Origin: Thiomonas sp. FB-6
GTDB taxonomy: Bacteria; Pseudomonadota; Gammaproteobacteria; Burkholderiales; Burkholderiaceae_C
NCBI RefSeq assembly: GCF_000377645.1
Contig: NZ_KB898471.1
Location: 629,084-693,083, forward strand
Direction: 5' to 3'
Length of the DNA: 64,000 nt
In this document: piece by piece, positions 17,405-21,168 of the stretch
Position numbering within the stretch: position 1 is the first letter of the stretch
Layout of the letters: every line of letters begins with the position of its first letter
Made by a program: the position numbers and the translations under genes
The notes under the pieces: generated by a model
What the model saw: only the letters and a program-made list of their open reading frames with translations
Databases searched by the model: none
Told to the model about the DNA's origin: nothing

Positions 17405-18130
17405 ATGCCTTCCCCCTGCATCCTCCTGCCGGGCCTGCTGTGCGACGACGCCGTGTGGAACGCGCAGGCTCGGGCCCTGGGCGCGCGCGGCATCGCCTGC
17501 AGCATCCCGGACTACGCCGAACTGGATTCCTTGCAGGCCATGGCGCGCAGCGTGCTCGACAGCGCGCCGGCCGGCCGCTTCGCGCTGGCCGGGCATTCCA
17601 TGGGGGCGCGTGTGGCGCTGGAAGTCGTTCGCCTGGCCCCCGAGCGGGTGCAGCGCCTGGCGCTGCTGGACACCGGCATCGACCCGCTGCCGGCCGGCGA
17701 GGCCGGCGAGCGCGAGCGCGCGCGCCGCATGGAACTGCTGGACATCGCGCGCCGCGACGGCATGCGCGCGATGGGGCGCGAGTGGGCGCGGGGCATGGTG
17801 CACCCCTCGCGCTGGGACTCGCCGGTGTTCGACGCCATCCTCGACATGCTGGAGCGCAAGACCCCGGCGGTGTACGAGGCGCAGATCCGCGCGCTGCTCG
17901 GCCGTCCCGACGCCCGCCCGCTGCTCGCCGGCCTCGCCTGCCCGGTGCTGCTGGGCTGCGGGCGCGACGACGCCTGGAGCCCGCTGGCGCGCCACGAGGA
18001 GATGCACGCGCTGCTGCCCGGCTCGCGCCTGGCGGTGTTCGAGCACAGCGGCCACATGGTCACCATGGAGCAGCCGGAGGCGGTCTGCGACGCCCTGCTG
18101 GACTGGATGGCCTGGGATCCCGCGGCCTGA
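17405..18130 (+). CDS. Alpha/beta hydrolase
   Basis: 241-residue single-domain alpha/beta hydrolase. The oxyanion/N-terminal motif is LLPGLLCDDAVW, the nucleophile elbow is GHSMGAR (Ser near residue 64), a catalytic Asp is plausible in GRDDAWSP near residue 195, and the His is in EHSGHMVTMEQPE near residue 219. The triad looks complete. No signal peptide is present, so it acts in the cytoplasm. It is 64 bp after the TPP enzyme on the same strand and probably cotranscribed; the substrate is unknown, an ester or C-C bond hydrolase being possible. Confidence 0.88.
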   Translation: MPSPCILLPGLLCDDAVWNAQARALGARGIACSIPDYAELDSLQAMARSVLDSAPAGRFALAGHSMGARVALEVVRLAPERVQRLALLDTGIDPLPAGEAGERERARRMELLDIARRDGMRAMGREWARGMVHPSRWDSPVFDAILDMLERKTPAVYEAQIRALLGRPDARPLLAGLACPVLLGCGRDDAWSPLARHEEMHALLPGSRLAVFEHSGHMVTMEQPEAVCDALLDWMAWDPAA

Positions 18131-18184
18131 AGCGTGGGCGCGGGCAAGCCCGCGCAGGCTCCGCCCCTTTCCGCAGCGAAGGCC

Positions 18185-18394
18185 TCAAGCCCGCCGCAAG
18201 GCCTCGTCCACGTTGCAGATCTGCGCGAATCGATCGCGCAGCACGGCCGCCGTGCGGCGCATGATCTCATCGGCCGCCAGCACGCGTCCGTCGGGCTCGG
18301 GCATGTCGAAGGTGAGCGTGGCGTCGAGCACGAAGTCGACTTCCCAGCCCAGGTCGGCGGCATGGCGCGTGGTGGTCTGACAGGTGCTCAAGAA
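18185..18394 (-). pseudogene. C-terminal remnant of an isochorismatase-like cysteine hydrolase
   Basis: A minus-strand reading frame ending at 18185 encodes CQTTTRHAADLGWEVDF..., DATLTFDMPEPDG and RDRFAQICNVDEAL. This is the C-terminal third of the isochorismatase/cysteine hydrolase fold, including the segment with the catalytic Cys. The N-terminal half with the catalytic Asp and Lys is missing: upstream sequence up to the nearest ATG (18460) does not resemble the family and runs into the argD leader. I read it as a truncated relic; a 92-residue peptide from 18460 could still be made but would lack the active site. Confidence 0.6.
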
Positions 18395-18458
18395 GGTCTC
18401 CTCGGGTGAAGGAACATTCTCCCACTGCTCGCGGGGTTTCGTTGTAGGATCGGATCCC

Positions 18459-18557
18459 ATGCAACGCCACCCGCGTCCCACCGCCGCCGCCCGAGCCGCA
18501 CGAGCCCGTCGCTCGTCGCCGTGTGCTGCGCGTGAGACCGAAACGATGAAGACCTGA
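18459..18557 (+). CDS. Putative Arg-containing leader peptide upstream of argD
   Basis: A 32-codon ORF with ATG at 18459 and TGA at 18555-18557, preceded by AGGA nine bases upstream. It has seven arginine codons, including a tandem CGT CGC at 18507-18512, and ends 27 bases before a strong hairpin terminator that precedes argD. The arrangement is that of a ribosome-mediated attenuator responding to charged tRNA-Arg. Arg-rich peptides are also common by chance in GC-rich DNA, so this is a hypothesis. A GCCGTG at 18518-18523 could pair with CACGGC in the terminator stem (18590-18595). Confidence 0.4.
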   Translation: MQRHPRPTAAARAARARRSSPCAARETETMKT

Positions 18558-18584
18558 AGTCCCCTTCGAATCGCGTTGTTCCGC

Positions 18585-18614
18585 AAGGCCACGGCTAACC
18601 CCCGTGGCCTTTTT
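18585..18614 (+). terminator. Rho-independent terminator/attenuator before argD
   Basis: AAGGCCACGG (18585-18594), a 7-base loop, and CCGTGGCCTT (18602-18611) make a perfect 10-bp stem followed by a run of five T (18610-18614). It sits 33 bp upstream of the argD start on the same strand, a position expected of an attenuator in a leader transcript; it could also stop read-through from upstream genes. Confidence 0.85.
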
Positions 18615-18647
18615 GTTTGCGCCTTCCGCCCCGACAGGATCCCCGCC

Positions 18648-19841
18648 ATGCCGACGACCACCGCTCCCGACGCGCAGTTCCAGCACCTCATGCCGGTCAC
18701 CGCCCGCCCCGCCAGCATTTTCGTGCGCGGCCAGGGCGCCTGGCTGTGGGACGAGGCCGGGCGCCGCTACCTGGACTGGTTGCAGGGCTGGGCCGTGAAC
18801 TCCCTGGGCCACAGCCCGGAGCTGATCAGCCGTGCGCTGCAGGAGCAGTCGACCCGGCTGCTCACGCCCAGTCCGGCGCTGTACAACCTGCCGGCGCTGC
18901 GCCTGGCCTCCCGCCTGTGCGAGCTCAGCGGCTTCGACCAGGTGTTCTTCGGCAGCACCGGCGCGGAGGCCAACGAGGGCGCCATCAAGCTGGCGCGCAA
19001 ATGGGGCCGCGTGGCTCGCGGCGGCGCCTTCGAGATCGTGACCTTCGCCGACGCCTTCCACGGACGCAACCTGGCGACCATGGCGGCCAGCGGCAAGGCC
19101 GGCTGGGACGCGCTGTTCCCGCCGAACGTGCCGGGCTTCGCGAAGGCCAGGCTCAACGACCTGGATTCGGTGCTCGCCGCGCTGAGCCCGCGCAGCGTGG
19201 CCATCCTGCTCGAGCCCGTGCAGGGCGAGGCCGGCGTGCGCCCGGCCACCCCGGAATTCCTGCGCGCGCTGCGCCGGCTGTGCGACGAGCGCGGCCTGCT
19301 GCTGATGTTCGACGAAGTGCAGACCGGCTGCGCGCGCCTGGGCGAGTTGTTCGGCTTCCAGCACTTCGGCGTCGAGCCGGACGTCATGACCCTGGGCAAG
19401 GGACTGGGCGGCGGCGTGCCGATCTCCGCGCTGCTGGCCAAGGCCCATTGCAGCGTGTTCGAGCACGGCGACCAGGGGGGAACCTATGCCGGCAATCCGC
19501 TGATGTGCGCGGTCGCGCTGGCCGTGCTGGAGCAGATCGGCACGCCCGAGTTCCTCGCCGGGGTGCGCGAACGCGGCGCGCAGCTCAGCCAGGGCCTGCG
19601 CGAACTGTCGCGGCGCCACGGCCTGGGCGAGGTGCGCGGCGCGGGGCTGCTGTGGGCGCTGGAGCTCGGGCGCGACGAAGCCGCCGCGGTGGTCGAACGC
19701 TGCCGCGAACTGGGCCTGCTGCTCAACGCCGCGCGCCCCCATTGCCTGCGCTTCATGCCGCGCCTGGACAGCAGCGAACCGGAGATCGCCGAAGGCATGC
19801 GCCTGCTGGACCAGGCGCTGGCGCAGGGCGCGGCGCACTGA
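18648..19841 (+). CDS. argD: Acetylornithine aminotransferase (class III, PLP)
   Basis: 397-residue class III aminotransferase of the ArgD group, which makes N-acetylornithine in arginine synthesis and can also act on succinyl-diaminopimelate. Seen: GSTGAEANEGAIKLARKW near residue 105, FHGRNLATMAASG near 145, LLEPVQGEAGV near 190, LMFDEVQTGCARLG near 225, and the PLP lysine in TLGKGLGGGVPISA near 252. Length is normal. The ATG at 18648 was chosen; a longer in-frame start at 18576 would translate through the terminator stem. It stands alone behind the leader/terminator. Confidence 0.9.
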   Translation: MPTTTAPDAQFQHLMPVTARPASIFVRGQGAWLWDEAGRRYLDWLQGWAVNSLGHSPELISRALQEQSTRLLTPSPALYNLPALRLASRLCELSGFDQVFFGSTGAEANEGAIKLARKWGRVARGGAFEIVTFADAFHGRNLATMAASGKAGWDALFPPNVPGFAKARLNDLDSVLAALSPRSVAILLEPVQGEAGVRPATPEFLRALRRLCDERGLLLMFDEVQTGCARLGELFGFQHFGVEPDVMTLGKGLGGGVPISALLAKAHCSVFEHGDQGGTYAGNPLMCAVALAVLEQIGTPEFLAGVRERGAQLSQGLRELSRRHGLGEVRGAGLLWALELGRDEAAAVVERCRELGLLLNAARPHCLRFMPRLDSSEPEIAEGMRLLDQALAQGAAH

Positions 19842-19926: not shown

Positions 19927-21168
19927 ATGCCCCCAGTCCGCCCGCCGGGCCGCGGCAACGCGGCCGCGGCCCGCGCCTGCGCCTGCGCCGCGCCGGCCTT
20001 GCTCGCCATGCTCGCCGTGGTGTGGGCGCTCGCCGCGCCCGCATCCGCCGCGCCCGCCACCGCCAAGCCGCCTGCCAGTACCGAGATGACCGCGGCCGTC
20101 GACCGGGTGATCCTGCCGCTGATGCGCGAGCAGCGCATCCCCGGCATGGCGGTCGGCGTGGTCGACCACGGCCGCTCCTACGTGCTGAACTACGGCGTGG
20201 CCTCGGCGGCCACCGGCGCGCCGGTCACCGACGCCACGCTGTTCGAGGTGGGCTCGGTCACCAAGTGCTTCACCGCCACGCTGGCCGCGTGGGCGGTGAC
20301 CCGGCATCGCCTGAGCCTGGACGCTCCGGTGCAGCGCTACGTGCCCGAGCTGCGCGGCAGCGCCTTCGGCCAGGTCAGCGTGCTGGAGCTGGGCACGCAC
20401 ACCCCCGGCGGCGTGCCGCTGCAGGTGCCCGACAGCGTGCGCGACCGCGCGCAACTGCTGGCCTACCTGCGCGCGTGGAAACCCGCCTGCCCGCCGGGCA
20501 GTTGCCGCAGCTACAGCAACATCGCCACCGGCATGCTCGGCATCGCCGCCGCCCGCGCGCTGGGCCTGCCCTTCGGCCAGGCCATGCAGCGGCAATTGCT
20601 TGCCGCGCTGGGCCTGCACCACAGCTGGCTGCGCGTGCCGCCCGGCGAGCGCGCCGACTACGCGCTGGGGACCACGCGGGACGGCAAGCCCATTCGCATG
20701 CGCCGCGGCGAGCTGGCCGACGAGTCCTACGGGCTGCGCAGCACCGCGGGGGACCTGCTGCGCTACCTGCGGCTGAACCTGGATCCGCGGGGCCTGTCGC
20801 CCGGCCTGCGCGAGGCCGTGGACATCACGCGCACGAGCTATGTCCGGGCCGGCGCACTCACCCAGGACCTGGTGTGGGAACAAGTGCCCTACCCCGCGCC
20901 GCTCAGCACCCTGCTGGCGGTGAATTCCATGCCCATGATTCTCGACACGCTGCCGGCGACGCGCATCGAGCCGCCGGGGCCGCCCGCGGCCGACGCATGG
21001 ATCAACAAGACCGGCGCGACCAACGGCTTCTCGGCCTACCTGGCGTTGGTGCCGCGCCAGGGCGTGGGCCTCGTGCTGCTGGCCAACCGCAACATCCCCA
21101 TCGACGCGCAGGTGCGCGCCGCCCACGACATCGTGCAGGCGCTGGCCGCCGCCAGGGAGCCGCGATGA
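19927..21168 (+). CDS. ampC: Class C (AmpC-type) serine beta-lactamase
   Basis: 413-residue exported protein: signal peptide about residues 1-42, then the class C fold. All three active-site motifs are intact: Ser110-Val-Thr-Lys113, Tyr196-Ser-Asn198 and Lys361-Thr-Gly363. The segments LFEVGSVTKCFTATL and THTPGGVPLQVPDSV follow chromosomal AmpC closely (GGLPLQ in the family). It is periplasmic and would hydrolyse cephalosporins. No divergent ampR is next to it. The stop overlaps the next gene by 4 bp. A class C-like peptidase is the alternative, but the motif set favours a true beta-lactamase. Confidence 0.88.
   Translation: MPPVRPPGRGNAAAARACACAAPALLAMLAVVWALAAPASAAPATAKPPASTEMTAAVDRVILPLMREQRIPGMAVGVVDHGRSYVLNYGVASAATGAPVTDATLFEVGSVTKCFTATLAAWAVTRHRLSLDAPVQRYVPELRGSAFGQVSVLELGTHTPGGVPLQVPDSVRDRAQLLAYLRAWKPACPPGSCRSYSNIATGMLGIAAARALGLPFGQAMQRQLLAALGLHHSWLRVPPGERADYALGTTRDGKPIRMRRGELADESYGLRSTAGDLLRYLRLNLDPRGLSPGLREAVDITRTSYVRAGALTQDLVWEQVPYPAPLSTLLAVNSMPMILDTLPATRIEPPGPPAADAWINKTGATNGFSAYLALVPRQGVGLVLLANRNIPIDAQVRAAHDIVQALAAAREPR

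Follow-up and report, generated by a model that had tools for sequence, protein, structure and literature searches.

A probable arginine-sensing transcription attenuator in the argD leader of Thiomonas sp. FB-6 and other Burkholderiales

The window, meaning the whole 64,000-nt stretch of DNA that was analysed, was taken from a 4.2-Mb draft genome of Thiomonas sp. FB-6 (79 contigs, 99.7% complete). The elements found upstream of its argD gene are listed in Table 1. The argD product was assigned with the NCBIfam equivalog model NF002985 ('acetylornithine transaminase'), scoring 573.5 bits against a cut-off of 568. An earlier, sequence-only reading of the region had proposed a possible arginine attenuator, built from an Arg-rich short open reading frame (uORF), a GC hairpin and a run of T residues in front of argD. 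All of these parts were recovered as described: the uORF has Arg in 7 of its 32 codons, its stop codon is separated by 27 nt from a hairpin of 10 pairs (18585–18611) with a T tract after it, and argD starts 33 nt past the five T of the terminator. A class C beta-lactamase gene (19927–21168; NF033085, 460 bits, cut-off 415) lies on the same strand, starting 85 nt past the argD stop codon, and might be co-transcribed with argD.

Table 1. Elements of the argD leader region, in coordinates of the window
Feature	Position	Strand	Remarks and basis
-10-like hexamer TAGGAT	18445–18450	+	8 nt before uORF start; putative promoter of a leaderless transcript, probable start near 18459
Leader uORF, 32 codons, 7 Arg (CGC CGT CGA CGA CGT CGC CGT)	18459–18557	+	Relatives show coding signature
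Regulatory Arg block, codons 12, 15, 17, 18 (R AA R A RR)	18492–18512	+	Predicted switch at block
Hairpin ACGAGC-CCGTC-GCTCGT (1:2, putative protector), overlapping Arg codons	18500–18516	+	Sequence; helix of model R1; in predicted fold
Antiterminator strand GCCGTG(T)GCT	18518–18527	+	Complement of terminator 5' arm
Intrinsic terminator AAGGCCACGG-CTAACCC-CCGTGGCCTT + T tract	18585–18614	+	Terminator scan; core alignment
AGGA, likely Shine-Dalgarno site of argD	18636–18639	+	Sequence
argD-type acetylornithine transaminase, 397 aa, stand-alone copy	18648–19841	+	NF002985, PF00202

An intrinsic terminator thus lies between the uORF and the gene, as in an attenuator. A scan of positions 18100–18750 returned two overlapping terminator-like sites, compared with 0.4 ± 0.6 in shuffled sequences. 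On both strands of 464 kb (the first 400 kb of the same contig plus the 64-kb window), nine strict terminators were detected; of these, only the one before argD follows a short ORF that has a -10 box 6–8 nt upstream.

The occurrence of the leader was followed across argD orthologues. ArgD was searched among named loci (80 retained, the best of 350), in genomes of the family (28 of 250 at E ≤ 1e-120) and in genomes of the order and the class (63 of 399 and 6 of 229, respectively, at E ≤ 1e-125), with the own genome included in each of the last three counts. The nearest relatives, among the best 80 of 350, are metagenome-assembled genomes (MAGs; loci L019–L023 and L028, one titled Thiomonas sp., Burkholderiales) whose argD is 90–92% identical to that of the window. 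The DNA upstream of argD was examined at 68 further loci, 63 from the order and 5 from the class. A terminator with an Arg-rich uORF was found at 31 of the 68, all within the order, and was absent at 37, including all 5 class loci outside the order; in the family sample it was present at 11 of 28 argD loci and, by eye, absent at 17. Together with 26 leaders from the window and from the named-locus and family searches, the 31 order and class loci (including L172 and L219) give a total of 57 leaders, of which 55, including the window but excluding L172 and L219, were aligned. The leader is also present at L054 (titled Cellvibrionales) and L032 (titled Alphaproteobacteria), both of which are MAG labels. 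Another MAG locus, L036, is titled Klebsiella pneumoniae and carries an argD 59% identical to that of the window; this title is probably a mislabel. The sequence-only reading had suggested aligning the leader across relatives, where conserved Arg codons and terminator/antiterminator pairing would favour attenuation and a hairpin kept without its ORF would speak against it. Both favourable features are present in the alignments described below. A hairpin and T tract without an Arg ORF occurred at only 4 of the 68 loci (L181, L190, L195 and L229), against the 31 that carry both; three of these four hairpins are weak and one lies more than 200 nt from argD.

For statistical comparisons, 30 representative leaders with less than 50% mutual peptide identity were used, the window included. 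A -10 hexamer of the form xANNNT is located 6–8 nt before the uORF start in 28 of the 30, compared with 12 of 289 other ATG/GTG codons in the same windows, a count with some circularity, as the -10 box had contributed to the choice of start codons. Start codons were never chosen by the -35 box, and TTGACA (at least 5 of 6 positions) stands at -35 spacing in 22 of the 30 representatives versus 9 of the 289 other ATG/GTG codons. A Shine-Dalgarno-like tetramer precedes the uORF in only 2 of the 30. The AGGA at 18446–18449, which had been taken for the ribosome site of the ORF, is doubtful in that role: 5 of 6 close relatives have AGCA in its place while keeping the -10 form, and the AGGA itself overlaps the -10-like hexamer. 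Judged from the -10 spacing, the uORF of the window is probably translated from a leaderless transcript rather than from a Shine-Dalgarno site. The leaderless case is weakest at the window's own promoter, since the close-relative alignment contains no conserved -35 box in the small clade of the window and a promoter scan at its leader found no site.

The uORF peptides diverge strongly, as illustrated by MHSLFLRRRRIPQHGRRLCVRRRS, METQFTNALRRRIMTSGMCSCGRRQP, MNRFLSALRRRRSPLRPDAAGSSRTRA and the peptide of the window, MQRHPRPTAAARAARARRSSPCAARETETMKT. Runs of at least two Arg codons are nevertheless found in 28 of the 30 representatives and runs of at least three in 16. Ala, the residue next to Arg in this respect, forms such runs in 11 and 6 leaders, respectively. 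The other forward frames contain Arg runs of at least two and at least three in 11 and 6 leaders (+1) and in 9 and 3 leaders (+2), while one reverse frame has 27 and 17, which is the mirror image of the CGN runs. Tandem codons for the amino acid of the downstream pathway in a short ORF, a hallmark of attenuators, are thus present, also in the window. In 13 groups of related leaders, aligned Arg residues are retained in 246 of 274 cases versus 716 of 904 for other residues. Among codons with a single change, 129 of 240 changes are synonymous, with 27% expected, and changes at codon positions 1, 2 and 3 number 132, 129 and 229, the pairs within a group not being independent in any of these counts; with one pair per group, the changes number 54, 51 and 80. 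By sequence comparison, the related leaders therefore bear a coding signature, which argues for translation of the uORF.

The choice of Arg codons is likewise distinctive. CGA makes up 68 of the 186 Arg codons in the 30 uORFs versus 11 of 376 in the argD ORFs of L019–L032, the two counts coming from different genome sets and the latter leaving out L033, where a frameshift interrupts the match. CGA, CGC and CGT are read by one common tRNA and together account for 159 of the 186 uORF Arg codons. In theory, regulatory codons should be those read by the isoacceptor that starvation affects most (PMC1183508), a view with which the codon bias of the uORFs is compatible.

These features also bear on a different reading of the leader, in which the peptide stalls the ribosome from within the exit tunnel upon binding of free arginine or ornithine, and not at empty Arg codons. 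SpeFL and the fungal arginine attenuator peptide are examples of such nascent-peptide arrest. In the clade of the window, the peptide core RAARARRS-PC-ARE is indeed well conserved, including residues other than Arg. Across the 30 representatives, however, the peptides have little in common except the Arg runs, and the conserved P-C codons of the core clade double as the antiterminator GCCGTG. The strong enrichment of CGA, a codon rare in argD ORFs, moreover fits slow decoding. We consider peptide arrest improbable, and a ribosome that senses charged tRNA-Arg at the Arg codons is the reading pursued here.

The sequence-only reading had noted a 6-base match between the ORF and the terminator stem. 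GCCGTG (18518–18523) is indeed complementary to CACGGC (18590–18595), and the predicted pairing extends further: GCCGTG-T-GCT (18518–18527) can pair with the terminator 5' arm GGCCACGGC over 9 pairs with one unpaired base. In a core alignment of 15 sequences, this antiterminator helix is paired in 98.9% of cells, with no covarying pair within that alignment. The more dissimilar leaders were compared by permutation. In the 30 representatives, with row and column effects removed, each leader's own antiterminator/terminator pair was 1.55 kcal better than permuted pairs (0.00 ± 0.33; p about 0.0002, 5000 permutations). Plain complementarity measured against shuffles of single leaders was weak (mean z -1.0; p ≤ 0.05 in 13 of 55 leaders; p = 0.29 for the window).

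The switch was modelled by moving a ribosome footprint along the uORF while the terminator 3' arm was not yet made. Averaged over 55 leaders, sequestration of the 5' arm was 0.59 for a ribosome positioned at the longest Arg run, 0.16 for one at the stop codon and 0.46 for ribosome-free RNA. In the 30 representatives, the 5' arm was sequestered to 0.65 with the ribosome at Arg and to 0.19 at the stop; the difference of 0.457 compares with 0.268 ± 0.049 (maximum 0.345) in 15 shuffled sets. For four of these 30 representatives (the window, L101, L026 and L103), the stall position used was not the longest run but the second Arg of the R-AA-R block. For the window itself, sequestration was 0.80 at codons 15–16, 0.51 at Arg17, 0.11 at Arg18 and 0.04 at the stop; unlike the textbook case, its leader is also predicted to be sequestered (0.76) without a ribosome. 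By computation, the antiterminator is thus mutually exclusive with the terminator and depends on ribosome position: a ribosome at the Arg codons is predicted to leave its strand available, which one at the stop usually would not.

The strength of the predicted switch varies among leaders. Of the 55 leaders, 38 show a difference between Arg and stop of 0.3 or more and 17 a smaller one. L164, L180, L200, L213 and L030 remain sequestered at the stop (0.51–0.74), and for L101, L122, L026, L027 and L033 the value at the longest Arg run stays under 0.2, although L027 reaches 0.80 at an earlier Arg codon. The 17 weak cases would agree with a terminator that lowers argD expression at all times by partial termination, with no response to arginine. 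It is, however, tandem Arg and not another residue that is kept in otherwise dissimilar leaders, and the argD family is named for a step of arginine synthesis; we find basal termination of this kind hardly credible compared with regulated attenuation.

Part of this leader family has already been catalogued under another description. The Rfam family RF02884 (BcKCsr7, 'Burkholderia sRNA 7'; gathering cut-off 59 bits) matches L207 with 163.7 bits, L212 with 143.0 bits and L219 with 92.6 bits, and the matches (L207:381–547, L212:197–348 on the minus strand and L219:361–514) cover the argD uORF and terminator. Both the start of the uORF and its Arg codons (CGA CGC CGC CGC) are contained in the RF02884 consensus. 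The cut-off was passed in 3 of 20 loci of one set and in none of 11 loci of another; the three positive loci share one family (f32) and are presumably Burkholderia-like. The leader of the window was tried as a member of RF02884 and rejected, with 20.0 bits. In Burkholderia cenocepacia, Bc_KC_sr7 (also nc5U30 and RIT34) is located on chromosome 1 at 2,967,641–2,967,787 and measures 147 nt; a review table records its expression in biofilm dRNA-seq, a decrease during nematode infection and an increase with an organic peroxide (PMC10987360). This length fits, as a match short of proof, a transcript running from the AUG to the terminator. A further study assigns 82 short 5'UTR transcripts to processing or attenuation, argD not being named in its main text (Sass et al. 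2017, PMC5688073).

The filing of RF02884 as an sRNA, together with the short RNA expressed there in B. cenocepacia (PMC10987360, Table 2), would agree with a constitutive terminator of a separate small RNA in which the ORF is a by-product of GC-rich sequence. Against this stand the codon-position bias of the uORF, the preference of the Arg runs for the sense frame (28 of 30 versus 11 and 9 in the other forward frames), a leaderless promoter position retained in dissimilar sequences, the position of the leader just before argD and an antiterminator that co-varies with the terminator. A separate small RNA is, accordingly, very improbable in our assessment. With attenuation as the preferred reading, RF02884 could be re-described as a cis-acting leader of argD.

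ArgR had been named in the sequence-only reading as the usual control of argD. Control by ArgR is unlikely to be the default here, because PF02863 matches neither the own genome (0 of 1) nor any of the 399 genomes searched in the order (346 with a completeness of 90% or more); among control genomes, 8 of 14 gave a match. The genome thus encodes no PF02863 match, which an ArgR-controlled arg gene would call for. With no ArgR match in these 399 genomes, attenuation may take the place of ArgR. A second ArgD paralogue, 43% identical, lies directly upstream of argF in the own genome (G000:C9, locus L251), and the 300 nt before it, inspected by eye, contain no Arg leader. No leader of the same kind was found in the 450 nt before the argF, argG, argC and carA matches of this genome, and no hairpin with a T tract in the 450 nt before those of argG, argC and carA. 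Within the set covered by this check (argF, argG, argC, carA and the ArgD paralogue), the attenuator in the own genome belongs to the stand-alone ArgD. The 1.5–3 kb flanks of the argD loci searched gave no match to E. coli argA/B/C/E/F/G/H/R or carAB (tblastn, E ≤ 1e-12, a search that could miss distant homologues).

Leaders of similar make-up were also seen before other genes. A uORF followed by a GC terminator precedes EamA-type transporter genes at L135, L136, L138, L139, L142, L145, L147, L149 and L158, with promoter-like boxes by eye just before the start codon; the EamA identity comes from PF00892 for L138 only, and was assigned at L139 and L147 from the opening bases of the gene. Several of these leader peptides share an Arg-x-Trp-like motif instead of a codon run, and the leaders are possibly another family of attenuators or arrest peptides. 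The same type of leader stands before chorismate-mutase-like genes at L141, L151 and L159 (PF01817 for L151 only). At L137, an Arg-rich leader (MNSLNRNIRRIERAIIAVPRRFVRSRVTT) and a terminator precede a gene for a transglutaminase-core protein (PF01841), which is no arginine gene.

Taken together, the argD leader is very probably a ribosome-mediated transcription attenuator that senses charged tRNA-Arg. The computed support comprises the conserved architecture, the Arg codons, the coding signature, the co-varying antiterminator, the predicted switch at the Arg block and the lack of an ArgR match. The attenuator originally proposed for this locus is thus supported, and the pattern across relatives strongly suggests that a shortage of arginine at the ribosome turns argD on. 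In the model that follows, the transcription start, translation of the uORF, the direction of the response and action in the living cell are as we infer them from these data. Transcription would begin at, or 1–2 bases from, the start codon of the uORF, which would therefore be translated as a leaderless message. With plentiful arginine, the ribosome would pass the Arg codons and reach the stop codon, where the antiterminator strand would be masked or held in the upstream hairpin, allowing the terminator to form and to release a short RNA of about 155 nt. Under arginine shortage, the ribosome would instead stall at the Arg block (codons 12–18), leaving GCCGTG-GCT downstream free to capture the emerging 5' arm of the terminator; RNA polymerase would therefore read into argD.

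The trp, his, thr and leu leaders consist of a uORF with runs of the cognate codon, protector, antiterminator and terminator strands, and an intrinsic terminator followed by a biosynthetic gene. The argD leader resembles them in its cognate codon runs, the three types of strand, the terminator and the biosynthetic gene, and differs in the amino acid that it would sense, arginine, and in its presumably leaderless uORF. Rfam models of the Trp_leader/Leu_leader type gave only sub-threshold matches among the loci searched (26.4 bits versus 50 at L176 and 25.9 versus 41 at L197). The closest known anatomy is that of trpL (rnTrpL) of Sinorhizobium meliloti, where the terminated RNA starts at the ATG of the leader ORF, attenuation is of the starvation type and a short RNA is released (PMC7298713); the argD leader would share these three traits. 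It differs in that trpL responds to tryptophan and precedes trpE(G) in an alphaproteobacterium, and that roles in trans are reported there for both RNA and peptide (PMC7298713). The closest signal is that of the orf34-speF leader of Salmonella, in which ribosomes pause at two consecutive Arg codons of the uORF when arginine is absent and so steer the folding of the mRNA (PMC6386406). That leader precedes an ornithine decarboxylase gene and acts through Rho-dependent termination, structure at the ribosome-binding site and RNase G, with no intrinsic terminator before a biosynthetic gene (PMC6386406). The main text of a survey of premature terminators does not mention arginine (PMC2965389), and no arginine attenuator of argD was among the papers listed by searches of the open-access literature.

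A wider view, which we hold to be doubtful and put forward as speculation, is that the argD attenuator is an old control of the stand-alone ArgD in Burkholderiales, an order that appears to lack ArgR, and has been rebuilt repeatedly with new peptides and stems, and whose released RNA (BcKCsr7) or Arg-rich leaderless peptide also acts in trans, like rnTrpL and peTrpL of S. meliloti. If attenuation of argD itself holds true, arginine would become a further amino acid to which classical ribosome-mediated attenuation responds upstream of a biosynthetic gene, and the catalogued 'sRNA' family RF02884 would be explained as the terminated argD leader. The leaders would then provide a large and highly divergent set of leaderless switches that sense codons, suited to testing the choice of CGA, and an answer to how arginine synthesis may be adjusted in Burkholderiales without ArgR.
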